Shown: one piece after another, positions 11,981 through 59,421 of the stretch | Numbering within the stretch: the stretch's first letter is position 1 | Layout of the letters: every line of letters starts with the position of its first letter | NCBI GenBank assembly: GCA_013334395.1 | Contig: JAAXXS010000002.1 | Location: forward strand, 38,227 to 102,226 | Direction of reading: 5' to 3' | DNA: 64,000 nucleotides | DNA from: Holophagaceae bacterium | Lineage (GTDB): Bacteria; Acidobacteriota; Holophagae; Holophagales; Holophagaceae | Translations under genes and position numbers: made by a program | The notes under the pieces: generated by a model | The model's database searches: none | Told to the model about the DNA's origin: nothing | Seen by the model: the letters and a program-made list of their open reading frames with translations, nothing else

Positions 11981-11995
11981 GATCCTGCTCCTGGA

Positions 11996-12610
11996 CTACT
12001 GGATGGGCGTCGAAATCCAGAGTTCCCTGGCGTGGACAAAGGTGACGGGGCCTTGGGTGACCTGCGCGTCCGAGCGGACGGCCCAGAGATCCGGGGCCAG
12101 CTGCTGCAACCCACCCGCGGCGGGCCGGAAGGTCCCCGTGCTCGCACCTTGGCTCATGAGGACGATGGGCAGCTTGCCCATGCAGGTCAGGCCCAGGGTG
12201 TAGCCTTGGGTGGTCCCCGTCGGCGAGCTGAGCCTCAAGTCCGTCGGTGGCGTGCCGCCGGGCGAATAGTTGGTGGGATTACCTGCCTGGACGGCCTTGG
12301 CCACGCCCGCCAAGGTGAGGTCCTGGAGCAGCGCCGCCTTGAGGTTCGTGAGATGAAGGGCCGAACCCTCATTCGCCACTTTCCCGTTTTCGGGATCGAG
12401 CCAGTGGATGGCCCACTCCAGGCCGGAGTCGGCCACGTTGCGCGCCATGGCCCCCTGGCGGCCGAAGCCCACGGCGGTGATGTCCCGCAGGGCGTTCCGG
12501 GACATGCCCACGGCGGCGACCGTCAGGAGCACCAGCAGCATGAGAGCCAGGATGATGGTGATGCCCCCGGCCTCGGAGGGCCGTCGGTAGGTGGGACCTG
12601 CATATGGCAT
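11996..12610 (-). CDS. PilX-like pilus assembly protein
   Basis: GGITIILALMLLVLLTVAAVGMSRNALRDITAVGFGRQGAMARNVADSGLEWAIHWL. Confidence 0.75.
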   Translation of the reverse strand: MPYAGPTYRRPSEAGGITIILALMLLVLLTVAAVGMSRNALRDITAVGFGRQGAMARNVADSGLEWAIHWLDPENGKVANEGSALHLTNLKAALLQDLTLAGVAKAVQAGNPTNYSPGGTPPTDLRLSSPTGTTQGYTLGLTCMGKLPIVLMSQGASTGTFRPAAGGLQQLAPDLWAVRSDAQVTQGPVTFVHARELWISTPIQ

Positions 12611-12620
12611 GGCGTTCCTC

Positions 12621-13817
12621 TCAGTTCATGGACAAACCCGAGTGCCGGGGCAAGAGGACCAGGCTCTGGGTGAAGGTCCGGAAGGCCAGGGCATCACCCG
12701 CCGCCGAGTACTCAGACCGCCGGGTGGCGGTGCGGGTGGTCACATCCAGGCGGACCAGGATCGGGGTGGACCGGAACCAGTGCGCGGTGCCGCGAGTGCT
12801 CGTGAAATCGGGCCGACCCGAGGCGAGAAGCTGCGCGTCCAGTGCGGTCCGGATCCCAAGGTTCCAGCCCGCGTCTAGGCCGATGTCGCCAGCCTTTGAC
12901 CCTGACGAGGCGAGCCCCGCCCAGCTGGCGCCGCCGTTGGCACTCAGGTAGACGCTTAATTCCGTCACGTTCTCGGCGAGGATCTGCTGGGGCTGGGTGG
13001 GAGTAAAGGCGGTGCGGGAGTAGTCGCCCTGGTCCCGCACCAGACACGGAATGCCATTGCCACTGCCGGGATCCAGGTTGAGGTACTCGATCCGGTAGCG
13101 GACCATCTGATTCCACTGGACGAAGAGCGCTCTGCTGCCATTCAGATGCCGCTTCGCCAGCGCGTTGCCCGGGTTCCCGCTGCCGGTGATGGCCGCAGAG
13201 GCCGGGTCCGAGGTCGCCACCGTCACCGTGACGGTCTTTCCGGATCGGGTCGGCGCTGCGGTGATGGGCGCCGCCTCCCAAGCATCCTTGAAGAGGAGCC
13301 AGTGGCCCTGCCTGACCTGGCCCGCGTAGGTGTCGCTGCCACAATCGAGGGTGAAGGTCTTATCTGCGATAGCCGGGACTGTATCCGCGAAGACCAGCTG
13401 GCCGGCCGAGTTGTGAGTCTCGGAGCCGGTCGGAGCGTTGAGCGTCGCCTCGAAGGGCAGGGGCTGGTCGAGGCAGAAGTAGAGCTCGTCCGTGGTCTGG
13501 GGAGTCTCGGTGCCCCGCCCCTGGATGTCCATGTTGGGCAGGATGAGGAAGGGTGGCCAGGTCTCGCTGGTACTGGGCGGCTGGACAAGGTCCGTCAGGT
13601 AAAGGCAGGCCTGGTTCAGGTCGTCCAGCAGCACCTCCAGCGACATGCGGTTCCGTCGTGCGCTGGAGAGGGACTCGCCCGATGTGTAGAAGCTGGAGAG
13701 GCTGGCCCGGTACACGCTGGCCATGCCCGCCATGAGGACCATGGTGAACACCAGGGCCACCAGGAGCTCGACCAGGGAGAAGCCTGCCACGCCCCTGGAG
13801 TGACGCACCTCAGCCAT
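12621..13817 (-). CDS. PilW-like type IV pilus minor pilin (prepilin N-methylation motif)
   Basis: GFSLVELLVALVFTMVLMAGMASVYRASL near N-terminus; overlaps preceding pilV-like gene. Confidence 0.85.
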   Translation of the reverse strand: MAEVRHSRGVAGFSLVELLVALVFTMVLMAGMASVYRASLSSFYTSGESLSSARRNRMSLEVLLDDLNQACLYLTDLVQPPSTSETWPPFLILPNMDIQGRGTETPQTTDELYFCLDQPLPFEATLNAPTGSETHNSAGQLVFADTVPAIADKTFTLDCGSDTYAGQVRQGHWLLFKDAWEAAPITAAPTRSGKTVTVTVATSDPASAAITGSGNPGNALAKRHLNGSRALFVQWNQMVRYRIEYLNLDPGSGNGIPCLVRDQGDYSRTAFTPTQPQQILAENVTELSVYLSANGGASWAGLASSGSKAGDIGLDAGWNLGIRTALDAQLLASGRPDFTSTRGTAHWFRSTPILVRLDVTTRTATRRSEYSAAGDALAFRTFTQSLVLLPRHSGLSMN

Positions 13818-14352
13818 GGGAAACCATCCGGGTGAGCCGGACGGTGCGCGGAATCGCCACCCCGGCAGCGGTGGCTTCATCCGTGAAGGTAACCACGACC
13901 GTCAGTGCGGACAGGTGGCCTGTGACGGAAACGGTGTCCGAGACCGGCTGGGCACGGGTGGTAGTGGCCGTGAAGTAGATCTCCATCGAATCATTGGGGA
14001 CACCGACACCCCTGACGTCGAACGAGTTCACGGCTTCACCGCTATCCTCCAGGCCGACATACCTCAGACCGGTCAGGGGCGTCGGAGTGCCGACGTTGCT
14101 GTCTGCAATATTGAGCCTGCTCAGGCGTCCCTCCAACTCGGCCTGATCCAGCACCTGCTCGGCCACGAGAATGGCGGTCCCAAGCCTCCTGCTCCCCGCG
14201 ATGGCCCTCAGGGACATCACCATAAGCGCCGTGAGGCCCATGATGCCGATAGCCATGATGAAGGCTGTCATGAGCATCTCGACCATGCTGAAGCCCGCCT
14301 GGCGGCGCCTCCCGAATGCCGCCCCGCCCGCCAACATCAGATCCGCCGCCAT
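13810..14352 (-). CDS. PilV-like type IV pilus minor pilin
   Basis: GFSMVEMLMTAFIMAIGIMGLTALMVMSLRA; start chosen at 14352. Confidence 0.85.
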   Translation of the reverse strand: MAADLMLAGGAAFGRRRQAGFSMVEMLMTAFIMAIGIMGLTALMVMSLRAIAGSRRLGTAILVAEQVLDQAELEGRLSRLNIADSNVGTPTPLTGLRYVGLEDSGEAVNSFDVRGVGVPNDSMEIYFTATTTRAQPVSDTVSVTGHLSALTVVVTFTDEATAAGVAIPRTVRLTRMVSHG

Positions 14353-15119
14353 GCCCCGTCGCCATCTCGGGCACCGGGATTGTAGAACTTGAAGATCGAG
14401 GCCCCGTTGTCCAGCACCACGATGAGCCCCATGGGCGCCCCGGGCACCGCGCCGCCGGAAGACGTGGTGCCAACGATGGGAATGATGAAGGAGGACATGA
14501 AGCGCTTGCTGCTGCCGTTGACCACCACGCGGTGGGGGTCCGCGGCCTCGGGGAAGAGCCGGTTCCCATCGACCACCAGGCCATTCATGAGGCCGGTTGC
14601 TCCACCGGCGGAAGAGGCGTCCGCGAAGGGCTGCACGTCGGTGATCTTCACATTCTGGCGGCCATTGAATGCCTGCATGGCATTCCCCCACTGACCCGAA
14701 CCGAGTGCCACGATGCGCGCCCCGGCCTGGGCCCGGTCTCCGGGCAGGCACCGGAACGCGGTCGCCACGCTGCTGAGTTGGGCGGCGGAGAGGGCGGAGC
14801 CCGAAGGAGTAGACCCGTTGGCCAGCGTCTGGATGTTTGCATCGCTGATGGTGGCGTCCCCATGGGCCATGCGCAGGGTGCCCTCGGCCCAGGTTCCCCA
14901 GGTGACGATGGCCGTGTCCCGGCCTGTGGCGGCGGCGGCCCGATGGGCATTGCCCAGGGCGCCTTCGACCTCATCCATGAGGGTGCGCACGGCGCTGGCA
15001 CTGCGCGGTGCCAGCTGGGAAACACCCACCGCCGACAGGATCCCGACAATGGACAGGACAAGCATCACTTCCAGCACGGAGTAACCGCCTGAAGGCCTGT
15101 CCATTTTGTGAGCAACCAT
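14337..15119 (-). CDS. GspH/FimT family pseudopilin
   Basis: GGYSVLEVMLVLSIVGILSAVGVSQLAPRSASAVRTLMDEVEGALGNAHRAAA. Confidence 0.85.
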   Translation of the reverse strand: MVAHKMDRPSGGYSVLEVMLVLSIVGILSAVGVSQLAPRSASAVRTLMDEVEGALGNAHRAAAATGRDTAIVTWGTWAEGTLRMAHGDATISDANIQTLANGSTPSGSALSAAQLSSVATAFRCLPGDRAQAGARIVALGSGQWGNAMQAFNGRQNVKITDVQPFADASSAGGATGLMNGLVVDGNRLFPEAADPHRVVVNGSSKRFMSSFIIPIVGTTSSGGAVPGAPMGLIVVLDNGASIFKFYNPGARDGDGAWRRI

Positions 15120-43620: not shown

Positions 43621-45108
43621 TCAGGGCGCGAGCGGAGCTACGCCCGTAGGGAGCGGCCCCAGGAAGAGGCCGGGCACGGTTGTCGGCGTGGGGCGGTCCG
43701 TGGAGGTGCCATCGCCCAGGCGGCCGTTGCTGTTGTAGCCCCAGGCCTTCACGGTGAGGTCCGGCAGCAGCGCGTGGGTGGACATGGAGCCTGCGCTGAG
43801 GGCCACTGCCTTCAGGCCCGGGAGCACCTGGGGAGCTGTGGTGGAGGTCGTAGTGGCGGAGCCCAGCCCCAGCTGGCCATACCAGTTGTAACCGGTGCTG
43901 GCCACGCTTCCATCCGCCGCGAGCAGGTGGGTGTGGTACTGGCCCGGGACCACCGAGTCCAGGCTGCCCCCCGTCGTCAGGCCGGCGGTGCCCATGGCCA
44001 CGAAACCGAAGCGGGTCGTGAGGCTCCCGTCGCCCAGCTGGCCGTAGACGTTCTCCCCGCTGGCGTAGGGCAGGCCATTGGTGCCGAGGTAGGTGCTATA
44101 CAGCGAGAAGGCGCGGGCAGACTTGACCCCGCTGGAGACCAGGGTGGTGAAGGTCAGGTATTCGACCAGCGGCGAGGAGGGGCGGCCCAGCTGGCCGTAC
44201 CCGTTGTCACCGCAGCCCACGAGAGACCCGTCCCGGGCCACCAGGAGGGTGTGCAACTCACCCAGGGCCACGTCGTCCAGGGCCAGGGCGGAGATGGCCG
44301 TCAGGGTCGGCGAGGTCCGGTTGGCCTTGTCGCCCAGGCCCAGCTGGCCGTGGGAGTTGTAGCCCCAGACCCAGATGGTGTTGTCGGCCTTCACGGCCAG
44401 GTTGTGGTTGTAGCCGCAGGCGGCGTAGATGACCCCGCTGAGGCCGGGCACCGCCGCCGGTGCATTCCGCATGGTGGAGGTGCCATCGCCCAGCTGCCCC
44501 GTGGTGTTGGTGCCCCAGGCGAAGACGCGGCCGTCCGCCAGCACGGCCAGTGAGTGGCCCCAGCCCGAGGCAACCTGCACCGCTGGCCCCGGAAGGGTCA
44601 CAGGCGTGGGCACGCTGCGGGCCTGATAGTCACCGCCCCCCAGCTGACCGTTGGCGCCCACGCCCCAGGCGTAGACCTTGCCCTTGGTGCTGATGGCCAG
44701 GGTGTGGTCGTGGCCCGCCGAGATCGCGGGATCTGCGTAGAGCACGTCCAGCAGCACCTCGGGGCTGACGGTCACTCCTCCCGTTGTGGCCGTGACACGG
44801 ACACTGTAGTGGGCCTGGTCATCGGCGGCCAGCACCGTCAGTGGATACGAATCGGTGGTGGCGCCGCCGATGGCCGTGCCGTTCCGCAGCCACTGGTAGG
44901 TGTTCCCGGTGCCTGCGGCCAGGACCCGGAAGGTGACCAGATCACCTCGGTAGCCGGCCTGGGCCTTGGGCGGGGTGGTCAGGCTGGGGCCTGCCGATGG
45001 GAGCGGCGCAGGAGTGCTGCCAGAGCTGCCCCCCCCGCAGGCGAGAAGGACGGCGAGGGCCGCACTGGCCAGGCAGGGACGGAGGGTCCAAGAGGCGGAT
45101 CGGATCAT
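43621..45108 (-). CDS. RCC1-repeat domain lipoprotein with N-terminal Ig-like segment
   Basis: Lipobox LAVLLACGGGSSG; repeated VYAWGVGANGQLGGGD..., VFAWGTNTTGQLGDGTSTMRNAPAAVPGLSGV. Confidence 0.9.
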   Translation of the reverse strand: MIRSASWTLRPCLASAALAVLLACGGGSSGSTPAPLPSAGPSLTTPPKAQAGYRGDLVTFRVLAAGTGNTYQWLRNGTAIGGATTDSYPLTVLAADDQAHYSVRVTATTGGVTVSPEVLLDVLYADPAISAGHDHTLAISTKGKVYAWGVGANGQLGGGDYQARSVPTPVTLPGPAVQVASGWGHSLAVLADGRVFAWGTNTTGQLGDGTSTMRNAPAAVPGLSGVIYAACGYNHNLAVKADNTIWVWGYNSHGQLGLGDKANRTSPTLTAISALALDDVALGELHTLLVARDGSLVGCGDNGYGQLGRPSSPLVEYLTFTTLVSSGVKSARAFSLYSTYLGTNGLPYASGENVYGQLGDGSLTTRFGFVAMGTAGLTTGGSLDSVVPGQYHTHLLAADGSVASTGYNWYGQLGLGSATTTSTTAPQVLPGLKAVALSAGSMSTHALLPDLTVKAWGYNSNGRLGDGTSTDRPTPTTVPGLFLGPLPTGVAPLAP

Positions 45109-45182: not shown

Positions 45183-48100
45183 CTACTGCAAGGTGGCTGT
45201 GGTCGCGAGCCCCATGGGACTGCTGGCCCCGGACACCGCGAAGGGAGAGCCCGTCACTGGGGACAAGCTCCCACTCGCCGGATCCAGCCGGAACACGGAC
45301 ACGGAGTTGCTGCCGTAGTTCGCCACGAAGACGAACCGGCCTGACGCCTCCACGGTCACGACCCGCGGGACGGAGGCCGTGGCCACCAGGTTGCCGGTGC
45401 TGGTCATGCCCCCCGATTCAGGGTCCAGGGCATAGACCGCCACGCGGTTGAACCCACCTGATTGGACCACATAGGCGAACCGGCCCGAGGGCTCGATGGC
45501 CACCGCATAGGGACGACTGGAGGCCACATTCTGCACGCCGGCAGTCCCAGGATCGGCATCAACCCGCGTGAGGAAGCCCGTGGTGGTCTCGATCGAGAAG
45601 GCGGCGATGCCGCTGCCGTCATGGCCCACATAGACGAACCGGCCGTTGGGCGCCACGGCCACGCTGGACGGGTACGAGTCCCCGGTGGCGAAGTCCTGCG
45701 CCCCCGCGGTGCCGGTGTCCCCATCGAGCCGGAACAGAACCCCGGTGGTCGGCTGGACGGCATAGGCGGAGAGGCTCGCCCCGAAGCTGTTGACGACATA
45801 GACGAAGCGCCCCGTGGGATCCACGGTGAGGGCGGTGGGTCCATTCCCGGCCGGGAACGGCGAGCCGGCCATGGCCGTCAGGGACCCGCTGGCGGGGTCG
45901 ATGGTGAAGCCGGAAACGCTGCCCGCGCCACCATTGTTGTAGTTGGCGTAGTAGACGAAGCGCCCGGAGGGATCCACCGCCGAGCCCCAGGCTGAGTGGC
46001 TTGTCGGCGCGGCGAAGGGCGAGCCTGGCAGGGCTGAAGGGGCGCCGTCTGCCCCGAGGGCGAAGCCGGTCAGGCTGGAACTGTAGTTGGCGATGTAGGC
46101 CCGGGCGCCAAGGGGGTCCACGGACACGCCCTGGGTGTTCCAGCCACTCGGCACGGGCGTGCCGGGGAGCGCAGCCAGCGCGCCGCTCACCGCATCCACG
46201 GTGAAGCCGGACAAGGCGCCGGTGGTGTTGCCGCCGTTCGTGCTGGCGACGTAGAGCGCCTTGGGCTTGAGGGTGAGCGGGGCGCTCCCCGAGTTGAAGG
46301 CCAGGCCGGACAGGCCCCGGCCACCCCGGGTCAGTGGGCCTGGAGTCAGGGCCCCGTTCGCAAAGGCGAGGCTGAAGGCCTGGATCTCGTCCACGTTGGG
46401 GTAGGTCACGTAGGCGAATGAGCCGGAAGGATCCACCCGGATGGCGCCGGGCACGCGGCTGCCGGTGGAGATGGGGCCGCTGGCCAGGGGTGTGAGCCCA
46501 CCGGAGGCGGGATGGATGGCGAAGACCGAGATGGCCTTCGATCCGCTGCAGGCGATGAAGGCGAAGCGACCGGCAGGATCGATCGCCACCGAGCTCGGCA
46601 CCGAGCCGGTGGGATAGGGGCTCCCGGACGAAGGGATGAGGGTGCCAAGGCTGGGATCGATGCCGAACACCGTCACGGTGTCGGAGAGCCGATTGGGCAC
46701 CAGGAGAAACTGCCCGGAGGGATCAACCGCCAAAGCGCTGGGGCCGTTGCCTGCGGGGAAGGGACTTCCGGAGAGGGGGGTGAGAGCCCCGCTGGCGCCG
46801 ACGAGGAACCCGGCCACGCCGCTTCCGGCATGGCCCACATAGGCGAACTTCCCGCTGGGATCCACCACGATGGCGGTGGGGCTGGCGACTCCCGTGGCGA
46901 AGGGGCTTCCGGCCACCGGCGCTAGGCTGCCGGTAGCAGCGTCCAGAGTGAAGGCCGAGATGAGCCCATTGGCAGAGCCCAGGTTCGCCACGAATACAAA
47001 GCGACCGGCGGGGTCGAAGGCGAGCGTCACCGGGCTCGTACCCGTGGGGAAGGGACCGGACGGCAGCGGCGTCAAGGCCCCCGTGACCGGATTGAGCGCG
47101 TAGCCGGACACCGTGGAGGCACCGTAGTTCACGGCGTAGGCGAAGCGCCCGCCGGGTGCGATCTCCAGATCCTGCGGGATGGAACCCGCCGGGAGGGAGC
47201 CCTGGGCCCAGAGCTGCCCGGTAGCTGCATCCACCGCATAGCTGGTGAGGGTGTCGTTCGAGCGGTTCGCGGTGAAGGCATAGCGCGGCTGAGGTGGCAC
47301 CACCACGGCCAGGAGCGCGGCCACGCTGCCCGTGGGGTTCGAGGCGGTAATCCGGTACTTGGCCCTGGGCGTGGGTGTCGTTGGCGTGCCCGTGATCACG
47401 CCACTGGCGGGATCCAGCAGCAGTCCAGGGGGCAGGGGCGGGCTCACCTGGTAGGTGGTGGGCGCGCCCCCGTAGACGATGGGGGCATTGGCGGGGATGG
47501 CTCTCCCCGGCACGTAGGACACGGGATTCACCGAGTAGCCCAAGGCCGTCGGAGCCTGATCATTCACCGTGATGCTGAGGGCCACCGTGGCCAGCCCCCC
47601 GCTGTTGGTGGCCGTGACGGTGTAGGTGCTGGTGGCCGTCTGCCGGGAGGGACTGCCCGAGATGACGCCGGTGGCCGAATCCAGCGCCAGCCCAGGGGGA
47701 AGGGCCGGGGTCACGTCATAGGAGATGATCGCTCCGCCGGTGGCCGTGGGGACGTTGGACACGATGGTCTGGCCCACCACGTAGACGGCAGCGCTGGTGG
47801 TGTAGGAGAGGCCACTCGGAGCTGGTGCCTTCACGGCCAGGGAGAGCAGGGTGGTGGTGCCACCGGCAGCGTTGCTGGCCGTGACCGTATAGGTGGCAGC
47901 GGGAGCAAGCACCGTGGGGGTCCCGGAAAGGGCTCCCGTCGCCGTGGCCAGCACCAGGCCCCCGGGGAGGGCTGGTGCCACCGCGTAGCTGCCCACGGGG
48001 CCGCCCCCGACGGTGGGCGTGTTCGCGGGGATGGCCTGGCCAAGCGTGTAGGTGGCGGGATTGACCGGATACTGCAGGCCGGTCGGCGCCGCCAGGGGCA

Positions 48101-48194
48101 GGGAGCCACCCCCGCCCCCACCCCCGCAGGCGGTGAACAGGAATACCAAGCCCGGGAGCAGGCGCTGGCAGGAGCGGGGCAGGAACATCGGCAT
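45183..48194 (-). CDS. Putative Ig-domain + lactonase-like (YVTN/NHL-type) beta-propeller lipoprotein
   Basis: Lipobox FLFTACGGGGGGGS; three LPPGLxLDxATGVISGTP repeats; >10 VDPSGRFAYV repeats. Confidence 0.88.
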   Translation of the reverse strand: MPMFLPRSCQRLLPGLVFLFTACGGGGGGGSLPLAAPTGLQYPVNPATYTLGQAIPANTPTVGGGPVGSYAVAPALPGGLVLATATGALSGTPTVLAPAATYTVTASNAAGGTTTLLSLAVKAPAPSGLSYTTSAAVYVVGQTIVSNVPTATGGAIISYDVTPALPPGLALDSATGVISGSPSRQTATSTYTVTATNSGGLATVALSITVNDQAPTALGYSVNPVSYVPGRAIPANAPIVYGGAPTTYQVSPPLPPGLLLDPASGVITGTPTTPTPRAKYRITASNPTGSVAALLAVVVPPQPRYAFTANRSNDTLTSYAVDAATGQLWAQGSLPAGSIPQDLEIAPGGRFAYAVNYGASTVSGYALNPVTGALTPLPSGPFPTGTSPVTLAFDPAGRFVFVANLGSANGLISAFTLDAATGSLAPVAGSPFATGVASPTAIVVDPSGKFAYVGHAGSGVAGFLVGASGALTPLSGSPFPAGNGPSALAVDPSGQFLLVPNRLSDTVTVFGIDPSLGTLIPSSGSPYPTGSVPSSVAIDPAGRFAFIACSGSKAISVFAIHPASGGLTPLASGPISTGSRVPGAIRVDPSGSFAYVTYPNVDEIQAFSLAFANGALTPGPLTRGGRGLSGLAFNSGSAPLTLKPKALYVASTNGGNTTGALSGFTVDAVSGALAALPGTPVPSGWNTQGVSVDPLGARAYIANYSSSLTGFALGADGAPSALPGSPFAAPTSHSAWGSAVDPSGRFVYYANYNNGGAGSVSGFTIDPASGSLTAMAGSPFPAGNGPTALTVDPTGRFVYVVNSFGASLSAYAVQPTTGVLFRLDGDTGTAGAQDFATGDSYPSSVAVAPNGRFVYVGHDGSGIAAFSIETTTGFLTRVDADPGTAGVQNVASSRPYAVAIEPSGRFAYVVQSGGFNRVAVYALDPESGGMTSTGNLVATASVPRVVTVEASGRFVFVANYGSNSVSVFRLDPASGSLSPVTGSPFAVSGASSPMGLATTATLQ

Positions 48195-48240
48195 GACAAA
48201 CCTCACGGGAGAAGGACAGGCTGCGGTCACCAGGGAGCCG

Positions 48241-48279
48241 GGCCCAGGCACACTTCCGGAAAAGGGCCTGGGCCACCCC
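48241..48279 (-). promoter_or_regulatory. Copy A of repeated upstream element
   Basis: Minus strand GGGGTGGCCCAGGCCCTTTTCCGGAAGTGTGCCTGGGCC, directly after upstream gene's TGA, ~75 nt before ATG at 48194. Confidence 0.65.
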
Positions 48280-50400
48280 TCAGGGACGCGGGCCCAGTCT
48301 GCGGAGTTCCCCGCGAATCGCATCCAGCTCGGCCCTCAGCCCCTGAAGCTCCCGACGCTGCTTCTGCACCTCGTTGAGCAGCAGGGGAGCCAGCTCGTGG
48401 TAGGCCACGGTCTCGATCTGGCCGTCCTTCCCGTGCACCACCAGCTCCGGCAGCACCTCGGCCACTTCCTCGGCGATGAGGCCGAAGTGGAGGGGACCCT
48501 CCGGCTGCGCCTTGTAGCGGAAGGACACCGGCCGGAGGTCGAAGAGCCGGTCCGTGCTGGCCCCGAGATCCTGGATGTCCTCCTTGTAGCGGCGGGAGGA
48601 GGAGACCGTTCCCAGCTGGCCATTGAGGTCCACCACCACCGGCACAGCGGAGAATTGCGTGGTGGCACTCCAGACCCCGGCGACAAAGATCTTCGACTGG
48701 TGGGAGTTGGAGCCGATGCGGATGGTGGCGTTCTCGGCGGAGGCGCCCCCGGGATGGCCCAGGTAGATGTTGTGCTGCCCCACCTGGAGGGTCTGCCCCG
48801 CATCCAGGCCGATGGCGATGTTGGCATCCCCGGCGTTCAGGTTGTAAAGCGCCCCCTGCCCCAGGCCCACATTCCAGGAGCCCGTGGAAAGGTTCAGCGC
48901 GGAATCTCCGAGCGCCGTGTTGCCATGGCCCAGGTCGTTGTAGCGGAGGCTCATGTGGCCCACGGCGGTGTTCTGTCCTCCCAGGGAGTTCGTGGCCAGG
49001 GCGTAGGCGCCCAGGGCGGTGTTGGCCCCGGGGGTGGTGTTGCCCTTGAGGCTCTCGAACCCCACGGCCGTGTTGCCGGTCCCCGTGGTGTTCCAGTACA
49101 GACTGTCCACCCCCACCGCCGTGTTGATGCGGCCTGTGGTGTTGCTGCGCAGGGCGACCGCACCCAGGGCCGTGTTGCGGTCCCCCGTGGCGATCGCGGT
49201 AGGCTGGTTCGAGTAGAGGGCCTCGAAACCCACCGCGGTGTTCCATGCGTCCCAGGGCTGGGCCGTGTTGCTGTAGGACTGCAGGAAGAGCGAGTAGGCG
49301 CCGAGGGCGGTGTTCTTTCCGGCGGTGGAGTTGGCCCACAGGCTGCCGTAGCCCACGGCGGAGTTGAGGTTCCCGGCGGTGACGGCCCGCAAGGACTCGG
49401 CCCCGACGGCCGTATTCCGGGAACCGCTCTCCAGGGCGGCCAGGGCCCGGGTGCCCAGGCCGGTGTTCCAGGAGCTCAGCTGGTCGAAGGTCTGGTCGGC
49501 GAACTGGAGGCGCCCGGCCTCCATGCCGAGGAAGGTGTTCTCGCCGGAGGTGCCGTAGGCCTCGGTCCTGTGCAGGAAGGGGATCCCCTTGAGCCAGAGC
49601 ATGCCGGCCAGGTTCGCGTCCCCCTGCACATCCAGGAGCTGGGAGGGATTGGTGGTGCCGAGGCCGACCCTTCCGGTCGTGAACACCGCATTCGCGCCGC
49701 TCAGGCTAAAAGGGCTTGCCCCGGTGGGGCCGGCTGGTCCCGTGGCGCCGACCGGTCCCGTCGCCCCGGGCAAGCCCACCGCGCCAGGCAGTCCGGTGGG
49801 TCCAGCGGGTCCCATCGGACCGGTGGCCCCCGCCGGACCCTGGGGGCCCGCAGGCCCTGTGGCACCTCCGATGGTGCCCGGCGCCCACTTGGTCCCGGTG
49901 TAGACGAGGCCCTGGCCCGAGGTCGGCGGCGCGGTGGTCAGATCCAGGGGGATGCCCTGCAGGTGCAGCAGGATGGTGGCGTTCTGAGTGCCACCCAGAT
50001 CCCCGGCGAAGGCGCCGCTCACCTCGAAGGCAGAGCGCGCCTGGAGGGCAGGGACCAGGTCCACGTCGGGACTCAGGCTCAAGCCCCCCACGCTGACCTT
50101 CAGCTTCAGGGCCGCCCGGCCCAGCACACTGGCGGGGATAGGCGGCATGCCGCTGCCCCCCAGCAGGGCGCTGTAGAGACCACTGGTGACACTGAGCCCC
50201 TGGACCCCGGAGGTCCACAGCTCGACATTCCCCGCATCCAGGAGGGCGAAAGTGAAGTCGCGGGTGCCTGTGACGGGCAGGCCCGCCTCCTGCAGTCGGC
50301 CCTGGTAGGCCAGCACGGGGGCCGGTGGCGCCTCCGGGGCCAGGGCGAACAGCGCGGGGGTGGCGGCAAGCCACAGAGAAAGGGCGGTCATCGGGCGCAT
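48280..50400 (-). CDS. Collagen-like / tail-fibre-like exported protein with C-terminal S74-type intramolecular chaperone domain
   Basis: Signal peptide; [22 protein letters not shown] Gly-X-Y run; NTAVG/NTALG repeats; C-terminal [30 protein letters not shown]...[17 protein letters not shown]. Confidence 0.9.
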
Positions 50401-50430
50401 GAGGTCTCCTGGGAGGGGCGGAAACAGACT

Positions 50431-51015
50431 TCAGGGTTTCTGGGGGGAGCCGGTGGGCAGGAAGCCATGGCGCACCTGCACCGATCCGGCAGCACTGACA
50501 GCGGACAGGGCCCGGAGGGGCTCCTGAACCACAACCAGGTTCTCGAGGGAGCCGACCTGCTGATGTCCACCGGGTGCCTGGAGGGCGTCCGCAGTGCCCT
50601 GAGCCAGGGACACGGGCGCCCGGACCAGCAGGGTGAAGGCGGCCACCTGGACCACCCCGCCGGCCCGCCCCTCGATGTGGAGGTCCGGAAAGGTGGCCTG
50701 CGCGGCGCCGGTCCCCACCTGGACCGTGAGTGGATGGGTCAGGGCACCGTCGGGCACGAGCCCCGAGGCCGTGACGCCCGCCGGGAGGCCGAGCCCCGCG
50801 AGGGCAATGTCCCCCTTGAACCCGTTGAGGCGCGATACGGTCACCGTCACCACCGCGCTGCTGCCCGCGGGGACCTGCAGGCTGGCGGGGCTCAGGGCCA
50901 AAGCGAAGGAGGGCATGGCAGGCGGCGCAGCCGTGGTGCCCCCGCCCCCTCCGCCACAGGCGAACAGGGTTGCCAGCAGGACGATGGCTAAGCTGGGGCG
51001 CGGTTGCAGCAACAT
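50431..51015 (-). CDS. Hypothetical lipoprotein
   Basis: Lipobox ATLFACGGGGGGTTAA; Ig-like segment with LPAGVTASG. Confidence 0.75.
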   Translation of the reverse strand: MLLQPRPSLAIVLLATLFACGGGGGGTTAAPPAMPSFALALSPASLQVPAGSSAVVTVTVSRLNGFKGDIALAGLGLPAGVTASGLVPDGALTHPLTVQVGTGAAQATFPDLHIEGRAGGVVQVAAFTLLVRAPVSLAQGTADALQAPGGHQQVGSLENLVVVQEPLRALSAVSAAGSVQVRHGFLPTGSPQKP

Positions 51016-51057
51016 GGGAACTCCCGGATGAACCAGCGTCGGCGGACGGGGCGTTGA

Positions 51058-51095
51058 CCCCCAGACACACTTCGGGGAAAGAACCTGGGCCACCC
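51058..51095 (-). promoter_or_regulatory. Copy B of repeated upstream element
   Basis: Minus strand GGGTGGCCCAGGTTCTTTCCCCGAAGTGTGTCTGGGGG, directly after upstream gene's TGA, ~75 nt before ATG at 51015. Confidence 0.65.
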
Positions 51096-52490
51096 TCATT
51101 TCCAGAGGGCCGTGCGGAACAGGAGGACCCGGTCCCCCACCTCCACCCAGGCGGCGAGGAGCCCCCCAGGACCCGCCACAGTGAGGAGCCGCTGGATGCC
51201 CTTGCCGGCGGTGCCGGGCAGGATCGCTGGCGTGGTCCAGGCGGTCCCATCCCACCGGGAGAACCCGAGGCCTTCGCCGATGCCGGCGACGCCGCGCTGG
51301 ATCCAGAGCAGGGCCGGTCGCCCGGTGGCGTCCCGGACCGCGACCAGGACTTCCGTCGTGGTGGTCGGCGGCAGCAGGGTCTTTGGTGCGCCTGGCGTCA
51401 GGCCGTTCAGCGGGGCGACCCAGAGGCCCGCAGAGCCCAGGCCGGCCACCCACCCCCCGCTGCTGCCCTCCCGGAAGAGGGCCAGGCTGCTGGCCGGGAG
51501 GGGCAGCAGCACCTTGTCCCGTGCGGTCCAGGTGCCTGCGGCGGTCCGGGTCCGGGGCCAGGCTTGGCGCTGGGCATCCTCCACGCCGCCCTGGGCGAAG
51601 AGCAGCCAGGCCTCCTGGTTGCCCTGGGCATCCGTATCCCAGGCGGACTGGTAGACCGCCGGCAGGCCGACCTGGGACAGGGGCTGCCAGCCGTCCACCC
51701 CGACCGGGGTCCCCGTCCCCGGTGTGAGAGCCACGGCCTGGGCTTCCAGCACGGTGTCGTCACCGGTGCCGAACTCCAGCAGGAAACCGCCGAGCCGGTC
51801 CCCGGTCACCACCTGGATCCCCTGCGCGGCCAGGGGGGCCAGGGCGTAGGTGGTCTGGACACCCCAGCCCGCACCCGGCGCCAGGCGGGCCGACTGCACC
51901 GTGGGGAAGTCCGTCACCAGCGAAGTGGTCCGCAGACCCTGCCAGGCGGCAAGGGCGCTGCCGTCCGAGCCTACAGCCAGCCGCAGTCCCGAGGGGCTCT
52001 TGAGCTCCAGTGACAGAGGACTCGCCTGGGGGCCCAAGGCCGCAGCCGCCGCGAGGTCCACCGGCACCCGGCGGAGCACGGTGGTGCTGCTCCTGGGCAG
52101 GACACTCAGCCAGCCGACCTGGCCCTTTCCTTGGGCATCCAGCGCCACCACCGGGTCCTGGAGGCTGTTGGTGAGGTTGGTGGACTCCAGGACCTGGGTC
52201 GGCTCCCAGGTGCCATCGGCCCGCAGCCTGGCCGCCACCTGTTCCCGGTAGATGGCGCCGCTGGCATCTGTGCCAAACCGGGTCCAGGCGGCCAGGGCCC
52301 CGCCCTTGCCATCCCCAGCCAGGCTGGCCCCACTGAGATAGCCACTGGCCGCGAGATCCACGGGGGCCTGCCAGGTGGCGGGTACTGCGGGTTGGGCGGA
52401 GTTCACCGGGGAGACCGCCGACCCGCCCCCGCAGGCGAGCAGGAAACCGAGGCCGAGGCCGAGGGCCGGTGCGAGGAGGCCGAGGTCCAA
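51096..52490 (-). CDS. Hypothetical lipoprotein (TTG start proposed)
   Basis: GLLAPALGLGLGFLLACGGGSAVSP lipobox; only upstream ATG is far upstream with non-coding-like sequence, TTG at 52490 fits signal peptide. Confidence 0.65.
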   Translation of the reverse strand: MDLGLLAPALGLGLGFLLACGGGSAVSPVNSAQPAVPATWQAPVDLAASGYLSGASLAGDGKGGALAAWTRFGTDASGAIYREQVAARLRADGTWEPTQVLESTNLTNSLQDPVVALDAQGKGQVGWLSVLPRSSTTVLRRVPVDLAAAAALGPQASPLSLELKSPSGLRLAVGSDGSALAAWQGLRTTSLVTDFPTVQSARLAPGAGWGVQTTYALAPLAAQGIQVVTGDRLGGFLLEFGTGDDTVLEAQAVALTPGTGTPVGVDGWQPLSQVGLPAVYQSAWDTDAQGNQEAWLLFAQGGVEDAQRQAWPRTRTAAGTWTARDKVLLPLPASSLALFREGSSGGWVAGLGSAGLWVAPLNGLTPGAPKTLLPPTTTTEVLVAVRDATGRPALLWIQRGVAGIGEGLGFSRWDGTAWTTPAILPGTAGKGIQRLLTVAGPGGLLAAWVEVGDRVLLFRTALWK

Positions 52491-52501
52491 CGCGGTGGGC
52501 C

Positions 52502-52573
52502 TCAAAGGTAGTAGCCGTGCAGGACGATGCGGGCCATGCCCAGGCAGGCGAGGAGGGTGAGGGCTTTGAGCAC
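52502..52573 (-). CDS. Candidate 23-24 aa hydrophobic mini-protein (GTG start)
   Basis: (V/M)LKALTLLACLGMARIVLHGYYL* between element C and the lipoprotein gene. Confidence 0.3.
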   Translation of the reverse strand: MLKALTLLACLGMARIVLHGYYL

Positions 52574-52633
52574 GATGACTCCACAGAGGGCGGCGGGGGC
52601 CGCAGGACCCCAGGCTCACGCTTCCGCGCCGGA

Positions 52634-52676
52634 CCACCCAGGCACGCTTTCCCGAAAGGCCCTGGGCCACCCCCCG
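52634..52676 (-). promoter_or_regulatory. Copy C of repeated upstream element
   Basis: Minus strand GGGGGTGGCCCAGGGCCTTTCGGGAAAGCGTGCCTGGGTGG upstream of mini-ORF/lipoprotein. Confidence 0.65.
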
Positions 52677-52707
52677 CCGAGGCAAGCTCTCGCTGGGGCG
52701 GTTGCCT

Positions 52708-55700
52708 TCAGGGCCTGGCGATGAACCCCAGGATCGCGTGGCCCCCCAGCAGCGGCTGTCGCGCCAGGGCCTGGGCCTTCAGCTGCTGCGCCTCCTGGGT
52801 CCTGCCCTGATCCGAAAGGAGCAGGGCGCGATGCAGGGCCAGCTCGGCGTCGTCACCGGCGGCGGTCTGAAGGGGCTGCAGTGCTACCAAGGCCAGGGCG
52901 AGATCCCCAGGCCGCCCCCGCCGACGCAGGGCCCGGGCCAGACCCAGGCGCGGGTCCCGCGAGCCCGGGTCCAGCTTGATCACCGCCTGGAAATCCGCGC
53001 AGGCCTTCGGAGCCGCCTCTGCGATGCCCGCCTCGGCCCGGGCCAGGTGGATCCAGGCCCGGATCTCCAGCACGCCGGGATTCTTCATGGCAGCCTGGGC
53101 CAGACTGAAGGCGACCAGCGCCTCCCGGAAGCTGGCCTCGTCCCGGGCCCGGGTCTGGCCCATCTGCCCATCGAAGAGGGCCAGTGCCTTCAGCCAGGCC
53201 TGGTAGTAGAGCAGCAGGGACTGTCCGGGCCAGCGGCTCAGGCCCGCCTCAAGCCCTGGCGCTACCCGCTTCGCCACCTCGCTCACGGAGCGACCCGAGG
53301 CCAGCCGGGCCTGGGCCCAGGCCACCGCGCTGTAGCCCAGGTCCGTGGTGCGGTTCAGGCGCGTGGGCTCCTGGGCCAGGAGCGCCTCGTATTGGGCGTG
53401 GCCATCGGCCTGGAGGGCATCGGGATCCCGCCCATGGTTCCAGGCATCCTGAGCCTGCAGGCTGCGGAGGTCCGCGTGGTTGGGCCCCACGAAGCGGAAG
53501 GAGATCCCCCGCATGCTCTTGAGCCGGTTCAAGAGGCCCTCGGCAACGCCCAGGGGCTCAGCCGGATCCTGGTTGTGGACGAGGAGGTAGCGGGCCTCAT
53601 CCAGCGAATTGACCACGGCCAGGTGGGGGCCGCTTGGATGCCAGGGCTCCAGCTGCTCGGCGGCCAGGGCACTGCTGCGCCCTTCCCGGAGGCTCTCGAG
53701 GGGATCCTGCTGGGAGAGGGACTTGGCGTGGCCCAGGGTGTAGAGGGCCTTGGCCAGGGCCCGCAGGGCATCCGCGTCCCGGGGCCTCAGGGCCACGGCG
53801 CGCCGGCTTGCCTCGACCTGCAGCTGGCCCAGGGAGATGCCCTTCACCCCGCCCACCAGGGAGGACTCTTTGGCGCCGGCCTCCAGCAGGATGCCCCGCA
53901 CCTTCCAAGCCTCCGCCCAGTCCGGGTCCAGGGCCAGAGCCCGGTCCGCCCAGGCCAGACCGGCCAGGAAGGGGGCCTTGATGGGCCGCCCCTGCCACAG
54001 CTCCGTGCTGGCCTCCATGTCCTTGAAGTGGGCCATCAGAAGGGGCACCTCGGGGTCGCTGCGCAGGTCCGCCAGCAGGGCCTCCCCGACCCGCAGGCCC
54101 GCCTCAACGCAGGCCTTGGTCTTGGCGTGGTCGCTCTCCAGGTGCGCCTCGGAGCCCTCCTGGGCCCAGGCTTGGAGCTCCAGCAAGGTGGACTCGAACC
54201 GCTCGGGATCTTCGGCCCGGGACTGCCGGGCCAGGTTCCGGGCCTCCGGAAAGCGCTTCTCCACCAGGGCCATGAAGGCCCGCTGGTGCAGGGTGTTCCC
54301 GGCGAGCCCCAGGTGTTCCAGGGCCGGCGCCTTGAGCTCCTTGTCCAGGGCCTGGCGTCGCTGGGCGCGCAGCTCAGGATCTTTCAGGCCCTCCACGGCG
54401 GGAAGTGCCCGCAGGTAGCGTCGGCCGTAGACGAACCCCAGGGCCTCGTCCAGCTCCGGTCCCCGGAAGCCCTTGGCCTCGGCGGACTCCAGGGCCGCCA
54501 GGGAGGCCTCCAGTTCGTCGAGCAGGAAGTGGACCTTGCCCCGCGCATAGTCGGCCGCCGCACTCCCGGGGCCCCGATGCGCGGCCAGCCGGGCCAGCCC
54601 GGCCCGGAGCTCGGCCTTCATGGGCCGCAGGTCGTGGGGCGGCGCCAGGTGGGCCATCTTCAGGCGCAGCTCCAGGGCCTTGGCCTCGCCCCCCAGCTGA
54701 GCCGCACTCAGAGTCTCCAGGGTAGCGCGGCGGCTGTTCCAGCCCGCGAAGGCGCCCGCGACCAGCAAGGCCAGGAGGCCCACGCCCAGCACCCGGGCCG
54801 GCAGCGGGTTGCGCCGGGCCCAGCGCCCGCCGCGCTCCAGCAGGTTCAGGGAGCGTGCCAGGATGGGCTCCCCACTGAGCACCCGGTCCAAGTCCGCAGC
54901 AAAGGCCTCCGCCGTGGGATAGCGCTGGGCGGGCTCCTTCTCCATGGCCTTGGCGACCACCACTCCCAGGTCCCGGGGAAGCCCGTCCACCTGGCTGACC
55001 AATGGCCGGGGCTCCTCCTCGAGGAGGCGGCGCAGCAGGTCCCCGGGGCGCTCCTCCCCTTCGGGCGTGGGACCCTCCAAGTCGCCGAGGCCCGGGACGG
55101 CGGCGGTGAGGGCAGGCGTGCTTCGGAACGGGGCCCGGCCCACGAGCACCGCGTAGAGGGTGGCGCCCAGGCCGTAGATGTCCGACCGGGAGTCCACGGG
55201 CGAGGCTCCGGTCACCTGCTCAGGGGCCATGTAGTCCACGGTGCCCATAAGCAGTCCCGAGCGGGTGAGGCCGCCCTCCTCGTCCCGGGCCAAGCCGAAA
55301 TCCGAGAGCCGGGCCTGGGGGCCCTCTGCGGTGTCCTCCACGAGGATGTTGGCAGGCTTGATGTCCCGGTGGACCAGGCCCATGCGGTGGGCGGCCCCCA
55401 GGCCCCGGGCGGCCTGGGCGGCCAGGGTCACCTTGGTGCGCCAGGTGGCGCCAGCCTCCAGGTCGCCCAGGGTCCGGCCCTCCACCAGCTGGAAGAGGAT
55501 GCACGGGCGCCCATCCAGGGTGCCCGTGTCAAAGACGCTCACCACATTCGGGTGCTCCACCCGGGACTGGAGGCGCGCCTCGAGAAGCAGCCGGTCCGCC
55601 TCCTTGGGGTCACTCCCGCGCACAAACTTCACGGCCAGGGGCCGCTCCAGGGCCCGATCCCAGGCCCGGTACACCTCGCCCATGCCGCCCGCGCCCAGCA

Positions 55701-55749
55701 GGCCCTTCAGGGTGATGCGGCTGTCCAGAGCCGGCAGAAGCAGGCTCAT
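52708..55749 (-). CDS. Serine/threonine protein kinase with C-terminal TPR-like region
   Basis: LLGAGGMGEVYRAWDRALERPLAVKFV, LVHRDIKPANILVED, LSDFGLARDEEGG, MGTVDYMAPEQV; TM segment then helical repeats. Confidence 0.95.
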   Translation of the reverse strand: MSLLLPALDSRITLKGLLGAGGMGEVYRAWDRALERPLAVKFVRGSDPKEADRLLLEARLQSRVEHPNVVSVFDTGTLDGRPCILFQLVEGRTLGDLEAGATWRTKVTLAAQAARGLGAAHRMGLVHRDIKPANILVEDTAEGPQARLSDFGLARDEEGGLTRSGLLMGTVDYMAPEQVTGASPVDSRSDIYGLGATLYAVLVGRAPFRSTPALTAAVPGLGDLEGPTPEGEERPGDLLRRLLEEEPRPLVSQVDGLPRDLGVVVAKAMEKEPAQRYPTAEAFAADLDRVLSGEPILARSLNLLERGGRWARRNPLPARVLGVGLLALLVAGAFAGWNSRRATLETLSAAQLGGEAKALELRLKMAHLAPPHDLRPMKAELRAGLARLAAHRGPGSAAADYARGKVHFLLDELEASLAALESAEAKGFRGPELDEALGFVYGRRYLRALPAVEGLKDPELRAQRRQALDKELKAPALEHLGLAGNTLHQRAFMALVEKRFPEARNLARQSRAEDPERFESTLLELQAWAQEGSEAHLESDHAKTKACVEAGLRVGEALLADLRSDPEVPLLMAHFKDMEASTELWQGRPIKAPFLAGLAWADRALALDPDWAEAWKVRGILLEAGAKESSLVGGVKGISLGQLQVEASRRAVALRPRDADALRALAKALYTLGHAKSLSQQDPLESLREGRSSALAAEQLEPWHPSGPHLAVVNSLDEARYLLVHNQDPAEPLGVAEGLLNRLKSMRGISFRFVGPNHADLRSLQAQDAWNHGRDPDALQADGHAQYEALLAQEPTRLNRTTDLGYSAVAWAQARLASGRSVSEVAKRVAPGLEAGLSRWPGQSLLLYYQAWLKALALFDGQMGQTRARDEASFREALVAFSLAQAAMKNPGVLEIRAWIHLARAEAGIAEAAPKACADFQAVIKLDPGSRDPRLGLARALRRRGRPGDLALALVALQPLQTAAGDDAELALHRALLLSDQGRTQEAQQLKAQALARQPLLGGHAILGFIARP

Positions 55750-57254
55750 CGGCCCTCTTCCAGGGAGGCCCACATGCGGTGGGCCACCTCTTTCAGGTCG
55801 GTCTCGGGGTAGTTGGAGAAACCCAGGCGGAGGCCCTGCACGGGGCCCCCGTCAAAGGAGAAGCGCCGCCCCGGCTGGAAGGCCACGCCCCGCTCCAGGG
55901 CCCGGGCCGCCCAGCGGTCGACATCCACGCCCTCGGCCACCTGGGCCCAGAGGGCCAGCCCCCCCTCGGGCACCTGGAACTGGAGCTGATCCCCCAGGGT
56001 CTGGCTAAGGGCCTGGCAGAGAGCGTCCCGGCGCACCCGGTAGGTCTGGTGCATGCGGTTGAGGTGGCGGTGGATGTCGCCGTCATCCAGCAGCTCGGCG
56101 AAGGCCCGCTCCAGCACCATGTCCCCCTGCCGATCCAGGGCCTGGCGGAGGGCCCGCAGGAGGGCGATGAGGGGGGCGGGTCCATAGACATAGCCCAGGC
56201 GCAGGTTGGGGCTGAAGATCTTGCTGAGGGTGCCCACATGAATCACCACGCCCGCGCGGTCCTCGGCGGCGAGGGGGGCCCGGGGGCGCCCCTCGAAGAG
56301 GAACTCGCTGTCCTGGTCGTTCTCGATGATGGCGAACCGATGTTCCCGGGCCAATTCGGTGAGCCGCGCACGGCGCTCGATGCTGAGGGGCACCAGGGTC
56401 GGATACTGGCGCAGGGGGGTCACATAGACGGCCCGCAGGCGCTCGGACTCCGCCAGCTGGGCCAGGGCACCCACGCGCATGCCCTCGGCATCCACGGGCA
56501 CGGGCAGGCAGCGGGCGCCCGCCCGGGCAAAGGCCTCCCAGACGCCCGGGTGGCCCAGGGCCTCCACGGCCACCGCTTCGCCTCCTGAGATCAGGGCCTG
56601 CCCCACCAGGAACAGCGCCATCTGGCTGCCCCGGGTCACCAGGATGTTGTCCGGGGAGGCGGCGATGCCCCGGGATTCACTGAGCATCCGAGCCAGGGAC
56701 TGGCGGAGCATGGGGTGCCCCTGGGGGTCCTCCAGCTCGAGGTTCTGCTGGCGGTTCAGCACCAGGGCCCGACGGTAGGCCCGGGCCAGCTCCGCCCCGG
56801 GCAGGAGGCGGGGATCCGGCAGGCCGCTGGCCACCTTCAGGAGCCCCGGCGACCCTTTGGGCACCTCCTCAAGCCGCGCCGTGGCCAGGTCGAAGCCCAT
56901 GGCCGGCCCCTCAGGAACCGGCACCGTGGACGCGGCCTGCCCCGGCAGGCGCAGGGGTGGATCGGGCGCCACCGCGCTGCCTTCTCCAGGCGTGGAGATG
57001 ACCCACCCCTCCGCCTGCAACTCCCGGTAGGCGGCCATGACCGTGTTGCGGCTGATGCCCAGACGCTCTCCGAGGGTCCGGTAGCCGGGCAGGGCATCCC
57101 CGGGATGCAGGCGCCCCCGGTGGATCTCCCGCATGAGGGAGTGCGCGATCTGGAGGTAGACCGGCTCCTTGCTCTCGCGGTCAAGAAATACGGCGGGCGT
57201 CCGTGCGCTCAGGGCTGTCTCCGGGGGAAGAGCAAGTCTAAGGGGAATCAGCAA
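55746..57254 (-). CDS. PLP-dependent MocR-type (GntR-aminotransferase) regulator
   Basis: EPVYLQIAHSLMREIHRGRLHPGDALPGYRTLGERLGISRNTVMAAYRELQAEGWV plus aminotransferase fold; exact start uncertain (TTG at 57254 proposed). Confidence 0.88.
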   Translation of the reverse strand: MLIPLRLALPPETALSARTPAVFLDRESKEPVYLQIAHSLMREIHRGRLHPGDALPGYRTLGERLGISRNTVMAAYRELQAEGWVISTPGEGSAVAPDPPLRLPGQAASTVPVPEGPAMGFDLATARLEEVPKGSPGLLKVASGLPDPRLLPGAELARAYRRALVLNRQQNLELEDPQGHPMLRQSLARMLSESRGIAASPDNILVTRGSQMALFLVGQALISGGEAVAVEALGHPGVWEAFARAGARCLPVPVDAEGMRVGALAQLAESERLRAVYVTPLRQYPTLVPLSIERRARLTELAREHRFAIIENDQDSEFLFEGRPRAPLAAEDRAGVVIHVGTLSKIFSPNLRLGYVYGPAPLIALLRALRQALDRQGDMVLERAFAELLDDGDIHRHLNRMHQTYRVRRDALCQALSQTLGDQLQFQVPEGGLALWAQVAEGVDVDRWAARALERGVAFQPGRRFSFDGGPVQGLRLGFSNYPETDLKEVAHRMWASLEEGR

Positions 57255-57268
57255 AATTCCGCAATCGA

Positions 57269-57308
57269 AGGTGGCCCAGCCTGCTTCTTGAAAGCGTCCC
57301 TCCCTGCG
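57269..57308 (+). promoter_or_regulatory. Copy D of repeated upstream element
   Basis: Plus strand AGGTGGCCCAGCCTGCTTCTTGAAAGCGTCCCTCCCTGCG, ~80 nt before ATG at 57355. Confidence 0.55.
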
Positions 57309-57354
57309 GCCCGTCGCCCCTCCGATCCTGAGCCATCCCCTCAGGAGCAGCCCC

Positions 57355-59421
57355 ATGCCAACCGTCCTGCCGCAAACACCCTCCTTCCCCCTTCGAGGCC
57401 TCCTCGTGGGGGCCCTCGCTCTGCTGGTCACCGCCTGCGGCGGTGGGGGCGGCTCGGCCGCCACCCCGGCCCCGCCTGCGGCCACGGCCACCCTGCTCAG
57501 CCTCTCCCTCAGCCCAGCCGCACCCAGCCTGGCTCCGGGAGGCACTCGGCAGATGACGGCGACGGGCGCCTACTCCGATGGCGCGAGCAAAGACCTGACC
57601 GCCACCGTGAGCTGGACCTCCTCGGCTTCCAGCGTCGCGACCCTCAGCACCGGTGGCATGGCCACCGCCATCGCCGCCGGCTCAGCCACCCTGACCGCCA
57701 CCGCCAGCGGCATCCAGGGCAGCACGCTGTTGACCGTCAGCGCCCAGCCCTCCAGCCTCGTCTCCCTGGCGATCACCCCGGCCTCTTCCAGCCTCGTGAT
57801 GGGCGGGACCCGCCACCTGCTGGCCACGGGTTCCTATTCGGACGGCACCAGCCGGGACCTGACGACCAGCGTGACCTGGACCAGCGCCACACCTGCGGTG
57901 GCGGCCGTGAACAGCGCCGGACAGGTCGTCGGCATCGCCGTGGGCAGCGCCACCATCGCCGCCACGGCCGGCAGCCTGACGACCCAGGCGCAGGTCGCCG
58001 TGACCGCCGCCACGCTCAAGGCCATCGACGTCACCCCGGCCAACATGAGCCTGACCAAGGGCGAGACCAAGGCCTACTTCGCCACCGGCACCTTCAGCGA
58101 CGGCAGCACCGGGCCTGCGGCCGTGAGCTGGAGTTCCTCCAACCCGGCCGTGGCCTCCGTCGCCAGCACGGGGGTGGTCACCGCGCTGGGCACCGGCACC
58201 ACCACCATCACCGCCACCTCGGGCAACCTGACCGGCAGCGGCACCCTGGCGGTGACCGCCGCCACCCTCCGCAGCCTGCAGGTCACGCCCGCGTCGTCCT
58301 CGTTCAGCACGGGTGCCACGGTGGCCCTGAGTGCCACGGGGACCTACACGGACGGCAGCACCGCGAACCTCAGCGCCAGCGCGACCTGGACGTCTTCAAC
58401 TCCGGCGGTGGCCACGGTCAGCGCCAGCGGCGTGGCCACCGGTGTCAGCGCCGGTTCCAGCACCGTCACCGCCACCTCCGGGGCCATCTCCGGCAGCGCC
58501 ACCCTGACGGTCACCCAGCCCACAGCCATCCTGACGAACATCTCCATCACGCCGCTCTCCCCGGTCCTGGTGAAGGGCAACACGCAGCAGCTGACTGCCA
58601 CGGGCGTCATGTCCTCGGGACCCTCCGTGAACCTGACCTCGCAGGTCCAGTGGTCCTCAGGCAACACCGCCGTGGCCCAGGTCAGCGCATTGGGCCTTGT
58701 CAGCGCGCTGAACGCGGGCACGGCGGTCATCGTGGCCCGCAGCGCCGATGGCGCCGTGTCGGGACAGACCACGGTGACGGTGACCACCCCCAGCCTGACC
58801 TCCATCACCCTGGACCCGCCCTCCGCCTCCCTCAGCATCGGCGGCACCGTGGACATCACGGCGATCGGGAACTTCTCGAATGGTGTCTCCACCAACCCCT
58901 ACGACACCCAGGTGACCTGGAGCTCCAGCAACCCCGCCGTGGCCACCGTGGAGTCCCACGGACTGGTGACGGCGGTCGGGGCCGGCACCACGAGCATCCG
59001 CGCCACCAGCGGCGGCGTCACCGCCAGCGCTGCGGTGACCGTGGCCGGAGCCAGCTTCGATCCCGCCCTGGTGGGCACCTGGAAGTTCATCGACATCACC
59101 GGGACCTACGGCAGCTTCTACACCTTCAACAGCAACGGCAGCTTCACCTACTCCCTGGTCTACCTCAACCACGGTGTCTGCATCAGCACCTCCCAGCACA
59201 CGGCCAACCGCTTCGGGACCTTCTCCAGCGCCCCTGGCAAGATCATCCTGAACGTCACCACGTCCTACGACGACGACTACAACTGCTCTGGAACCGGTTT
59301 CCGCACCACCTTCCAGCCCAGCATCCAGGAGCACCAGGCCGCCTTCCAGTCCGGCCAGCTCCTCACGAACAACCCGAACGATTTCTACCCCACTGGCTGG
59401 CTCGCTCACACCAAGCAGTAA
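57355..59421 (+). CDS. Bacterial Ig-like (BIG2) repeat lipoprotein
   Basis: Lipobox LLVTACGGGGGSAA; about seven ~85-aa repeats (LTxSVTWTSxxPAVAxVxxxGxVxGxxxGxxTITATxG). Confidence 0.92.
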   Translation: MPTVLPQTPSFPLRGLLVGALALLVTACGGGGGSAATPAPPAATATLLSLSLSPAAPSLAPGGTRQMTATGAYSDGASKDLTATVSWTSSASSVATLSTGGMATAIAAGSATLTATASGIQGSTLLTVSAQPSSLVSLAITPASSSLVMGGTRHLLATGSYSDGTSRDLTTSVTWTSATPAVAAVNSAGQVVGIAVGSATIAATAGSLTTQAQVAVTAATLKAIDVTPANMSLTKGETKAYFATGTFSDGSTGPAAVSWSSSNPAVASVASTGVVTALGTGTTTITATSGNLTGSGTLAVTAATLRSLQVTPASSSFSTGATVALSATGTYTDGSTANLSASATWTSSTPAVATVSASGVATGVSAGSSTVTATSGAISGSATLTVTQPTAILTNISITPLSPVLVKGNTQQLTATGVMSSGPSVNLTSQVQWSSGNTAVAQVSALGLVSALNAGTAVIVARSADGAVSGQTTVTVTTPSLTSITLDPPSASLSIGGTVDITAIGNFSNGVSTNPYDTQVTWSSSNPAVATVESHGLVTAVGAGTTSIRATSGGVTASAAVTVAGASFDPALVGTWKFIDITGTYGSFYTFNSNGSFTYSLVYLNHGVCISTSQHTANRFGTFSSAPGKIILNVTTSYDDDYNCSGTGFRTTFQPSIQEHQAAFQSGQLLTNNPNDFYPTGWLAHTKQ

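Follow-up and report, generated by a model that had tools for sequence, protein, structure and literature searches.

The window (the whole stretch of 64,000 nt that was analyzed) carries an island of genes for exported proteins, bordered by valS on one side and by a small conserved gene and then an exonuclease-like gene on the other, in which 4 copies (A to D) of a 63-bp element were identified. Copy A (48215..48277, minus strand) precedes a gene for a lipoprotein with He_PIG domains and a lactonase-like beta-propeller (45183..48194, minus strand), which is probably co-transcribed with the gene of an RCC1-repeat lipoprotein (43621..45108, minus strand) without an element of its own. Copy B (51032..51094, minus strand) lies before the gene of a small lipoprotein without a Pfam family (50431..51015, minus strand), probably co-transcribed with a gene for a Collagen-repeat/Peptidase_S74 exported protein (48280..50400, minus strand), also without its own element. 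Copy C (52609..52671, minus strand) is followed by a degraded 23-codon ORF with a GTG start and then by a lipoprotein gene without a Pfam family (51096..52506, minus strand), which begins from TTG at about +166. Copy D (57270..57332, plus strand) occupies the divergent gap between a gene for a MocR-type transcription factor (55746..57212, minus strand; start uncertain, as 57212 lacks a usual start codon) and the gene of a lipoprotein with six Big_2 domains (57355..59421, plus strand). The start of a Ser/Thr protein kinase gene (52708..55749, minus strand) overlaps the MocR stop by 4 bp.

The 23-codon ORF after copy C (52512-52584, minus strand) resembles the start of a signal-peptide gene that is intact in relatives (MLKPLALATLLL...), and it looks like the remnant of such a gene, its stop overlapping the TTG at which the following lipoprotein gene begins. 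Elsewhere in the window, at 6635-15119 on the minus strand, inspection by eye showed a long exported protein with small prepilin-like proteins behind it, possibly a type IV pilus tip cluster.

All 4 copies that the sequence-only reading had reported were recovered, in place and letter for letter. The pattern GGTGGCCCAG-N11-RAAGYGT has 4 exact matches in the 3.16-Mb draft genome, and these are copies A to D, the only strong matches, all inside 9 kb; with up to 3 mismatches, the remaining sites are at background (41+37 versus 35+33 for a reversed control pattern). A 65-position sequence model, partly built from copies A to D themselves, found A (G000:C18:86443-86504, E 4e-13), B (E 5.2e-10), C (E 1.4e-13), and D (E 3.7e-9) in the genome, the next matches being noise (E 0.03). 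The ten-mer GGTGGCCCAG alone occurs at 57 sites in the window with up to 1 mismatch, versus 22.75 expected, an excess that probably reflects codon usage; because it is so frequent in a window this rich in GC, the ten-mer carries little weight on its own. An exact 17-base pattern searched across all genome contigs gave, among the matches listed, mostly chance hits in unrelated phyla and was set aside. The regulon proposed in the sequence-only reading is supported by the many further copies found in relatives, which are oriented and lie nearly all before genes for exported proteins.

These relatives are Geothrix and other Holophagaceae. With up to 1 mismatch, GGTGGCCCAG-N11-RAAGYGT was present in 25 of 77 family genomes, some single matches among them being chance, and it often formed clusters of 2 to 6 per region; with a shuffled consensus as the control, about 1.8 matches per shuffle passed the lowest threshold and hardly any passed a higher one. 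We aligned 54 distinct copies from the window and 18 loci of relatives, and the alignment is free of gaps over about 63 bp (RGTGGCCCAGnCCCTTTCnnGAAAGCGTgCCTGgg-N20-AnnCTGR). Conserved positions are RGTGGCCCA (1-9), TTTC (15-18), AAAGYG(T) (22-28), and CCTG (30-33), along with A56 and C59-T60-G61 at a fixed distance, and there is little conservation upstream of -1 or at positions 37-55. The element is therefore longer than the approximately 40 nt first proposed, fixed-distance conservation reaching position 62; of the block layout proposed with it, the fixed CTT fails in copy D, which has GCT in register, and the conserved block is TTTC at 15-18. Weaker copies were also seen at 2 loci (L193 and L235) far from the MocR island, before genes whose exported products, about 350 aa long, belong to one family.

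The start codon usually lies 79-100 bp from the first base of the element, with 82-98 bp as the typical distance (median, 84). Counted from the first G, it is at +83 for copy A, +79 for copy B, and +85 for copy D. Copies A and B begin 1-3 bp past the stop codon of the preceding gene, and the 5' ends of back-to-back divergent copies are 13, 20, 21, 23, and 31 bp apart, with 65 bp in a sixth pair; these short distances require a promoter that is inside the element or overlaps it.

Products encoded behind the elements in the window and relatives include Cys-Gly-Gly-Gly lipoproteins with Ig-like, beta-propeller, or unknown domains, as well as small signal-peptide proteins and one membrane-anchored small protein. 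A lipobox was identified in 33 of 49 called genes with an element versus 34 of 305 without, counts that contain repeated orthologues and lipoprotein-rich islands, such that a p-value overstates independence. A stricter lipobox expression, applied to ORFs of which some frames are wrong, gave 37 of 70 element-linked ORFs versus 21 of 296 others. Nearly all of the remaining element-linked called genes encode a signal peptide or membrane anchor; the gene downstream of one copy (L237 in G027) does not look exported. In many unrelated exported proteins encoded between 43621 and 59421 in the window, and in relatives, a glycine run follows the lipobox (ACGGGGGG...) and may serve as a signature for sorting or as a linker.

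The MocR-type factor has a GntR HTH domain (PF00392, 4.8e-17) and a class I/II aminotransferase domain (PF00155, 1.7e-23), matches GabR chains in the PDB, and scores 353.5 bits against the NCBIfam PdxR model NF052282, above its cut-off of 320. Its PLP-lysine motif, GTLSK, aligns with the SK motif of solved aminotransferases and is kept in all F1 members examined except one divergent paralogue; this predicted motif would supply the PLP-binding lysine expected in the MocR subfamily. The adjoining kinase has Pfam Pkinase and TPR matches; HRDIKPAN, DFG, and APE motifs; one transmembrane helix predicted by hydropathy (residues ~316-334); and a TPR-like C-terminal part. A script placed the kinase gene directly after the MocR gene in 13 of 17 loci, the rest being contig or locus ends or a mis-called start. 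The MocR gene is divergent to, and beside, copy D, and its product, missed by the sequence-only reading, is likely the regulator of the element. Open-access papers on MocR with kinases, or on Acidobacteria or Geothrix regulons, yielded nothing relevant, and the tight pairing of a MocR factor with a membrane protein kinase looks new.

Among 47 Geothrix genomes, we found the element together with a MocR of this group (at least 64% identity) in 20, the element only in 1 (G045, in 530 contigs), the MocR only in 1 (G048), and neither in 25 (Fisher p 4e-11, the relatives not being independent). This table adds weaker copies and a MocR group at 64-68%. Strong copies (E < 1e-8) and a MocR at 78-100% identity each occur in 15 Geothrix genomes, and the two sets of genomes coincide completely; no other MocR paralogue exceeds 51% identity. 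Outside Geothrix, clear copies were identified only in G053 (best E 9e-11), where a 73% identical MocR with a kinase beside it lies on the same contig, 3-8 kb from 3 copies; G071 has one weak partial match, and in 18 other outside genomes of the family or class no MocR exceeded 49% identity.

Two genomes harbor separate MocR-kinase pairs (G041:C19 and G046:C1) with a 64-65% identical MocR and a copy in the divergent gap, as at D. In a further group, MocR2 (66-68%), the variant GGTGGCCTAGCCGGTATTTTGAAAGCGCACCTGT precedes a small exported protein gene directly after the kinase gene; the genome of the window also has a MocR2 gene (G000:C61), with no strong copy nearby on that short contig. A second type of MocR-kinase locus (L225, L226, L230 and L228, L229) combines a variant element with a gene for a small exported protein and adjoins a transporter-like gene, and some genomes have 2 tandem kinase genes. 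The kinase co-occurs with the element as well as MocR does, so the profile cannot separate the two, and MocR is preferred as the reader because only it has a DNA-binding domain. Because the elements, the MocR gene, and the target genes are generally passed on as a single island, a large part of the co-occurrence reflects shared inheritance.

Within the element, comparing positions 1-10 copy by copy with downstream sequence showed that an offset of 23 bp was the best of 39 (5.32/10 identities; mean 2.97, sd 0.80), a test that covered this one box position. The copy in G046:C1 reads AGTGGACCTG-N13-AGTGGACCTG, a perfect 10-bp repeat 23 bp apart. When PWM columns were permuted, neither direct nor inverted repeats at the 2 boxes were significant; the layout therefore depends on the copy-by-copy comparison and on the copy in G046:C1, and we regard a two-box operator as probable. 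MocR operators usually have direct boxes separated by two or three helical turns, and an inverted box is often present as well (PMC5320631); the 23-bp offset falls in this range.

Taken with the genomic association, these features make it likely that the element is an operator fused to a promoter, bound by the PdxR-like MocR of the island and switching on surface lipoprotein genes in Geothrix. A MocR dimer would bind direct-repeat boxes at 1-10 (RGTGGCC(C/T)AG) and 24-33 (AGYGKnCCTG), which at 23 bp apart would present nearly the same DNA face, and the CTTTC..GAAAG inverted repeat between them is a possible third box. The downstream box would abut a weak -35-like CTG at 31-33, and A56 and T60 are spaced like the A and T that are conserved in a -10 hexamer; spacing is the basis of both promoter assignments, which we infer from sequence. 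Bound MocR, perhaps responding to PLP or an amine as ligand, would recruit RNA polymerase, with transcription starting near 66-68, just before the ribosome-binding site. The 4 operators would then switch 4 transcription units for exported lipoproteins together, and copy D would also set the level of MocR itself. We suggest, more tentatively, that the transmembrane Ser/Thr kinase, whose translation is coupled to that of MocR, through its TPR-like C-terminal sensor, and the PLP-dependent MocR could jointly control this surface lipoprotein regulon, for example by phosphorylation of MocR.

The structured RNA envisaged in the sequence-only reading, a riboswitch or protein-binding leader acting in cis in the 5' UTR of the lipoprotein genes, might account for the fixed length, the constant sense orientation, and the good single hairpins of copies A and C (-25 and -28 kcal/mol). 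However, RNAalifold returned zero consensus pairs for 50 copies, no covariation was found, stem changes are uncompensated, and the CCCA/TGGG and CTTT/AAAG hairpins pair in 82.0% of cells versus 81.9% after shuffling, with one double change. D-type copies lack the outer stem and keep the sequence, and divergent back-to-back copies leave no room for separate promoters. Rfam gave no match at gathering or permissive thresholds, consistent with the earlier view that no known riboswitch family is involved. The element is a real DNA control site and not a structured RNA, a reading we consider very improbable. Least probable of all is a mobile or recombination repeat (REP-like) spreading between genes: several intergenic copies do share one island, some as inverted pairs, but they keep a fixed place and always a sense orientation before a start codon, their flanks are not shared, and no strong copies occur elsewhere in the genome.

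A sigma-54 promoter, already doubted from copies A to D, in which TT replaces the GC of GG-N10-GC, was rejected because the -12 position is wrong; across all copies, the position of the GC holds T16 in 46 of 54 and T17 in 53 of 54. The element could instead be the promoter of a dedicated alternative sigma factor, such as an ECF factor, with GTGGCCCA as -35 and AAAGCGT as -10 and with MocR a mere neighbor; the 2 conserved blocks about 15 bp apart and a promoter that must be inside the element fit this proposal. We nonetheless judge it improbable, as conservation over about 62 bp is more than a sigma factor would recognize, the island genes examined include none for a sigma factor, the blocks are arranged as a direct repeat, and MocR-linked variant loci have their own element versions. 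Somewhat less improbable, though still unlikely, is that MocR binds the element and represses the lipoprotein genes, since MocR factors can autorepress (PMC5320631) and the element overlaps or contains the promoter. Yet most of the characterized factors named in PMC5320631 are activators of their structural genes, the boxes are located at or upstream of the putative -35, and the promoter would appear too weak alone, all of which favors activation by MocR from its operator.

MocR regulators are known mainly for PLP, GABA, taurine, and ectoine metabolism, and their genes are often divergent from the genes that they activate (PMC5320631). The Geothrix factor resembles PdxR-type MocR proteins (PMC4494728, PMC5320631) in its GntR and aminotransferase domains and its score above the NCBIfam PdxR cut-off, and its element resembles PdxR operators, for which the published box is AAAGTGGW(-/T)CTA (PMC4494728), in having a direct repeat with AAAGYG-like boxes in the divergent gap beside the regulator gene. 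In contrast to PdxR, its targets are surface lipoproteins rather than PLP synthesis genes, there are several operators per genome, the spacing is 23 bp, and the regulator gene overlaps that of a membrane Ser/Thr kinase. No element was found at pdx genes in this genome, and because the 4 strong copies are all at lipoprotein genes, this is not the PdxR regulon arrangement of an operator at PLP synthesis or salvage genes. GabR and TauR share the MocR subfamily, direct repeats, and a regulator often divergent from its targets, but their boxes (ATACCA, CTGGACYTAA) and their metabolic targets (GABA, taurine) differ. A MocR linked to a family of membrane-protein genes (PMC4944035) is likewise tied to envelope genes rather than PLP metabolism, with a single membrane protein family there and many unrelated exported lipoproteins plus a kinase in Geothrix.

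The MocR factor here appears to govern a surface lipoprotein regulon through several operators, and its gene is joined to that of a membrane Ser/Thr kinase; this pairing is conserved at several separate loci and also in a second genus. The kinase partnership would be the new part of the system and may exemplify a PLP-dependent transcription factor that receives input from a kinase. The analysis gives a testable regulator, operator, and target set in Acidobacteriota, including several target families without a Pfam match, and if the MocR-kinase module is true, envelope sensing would be joined to a vitamin-B6-type regulator.
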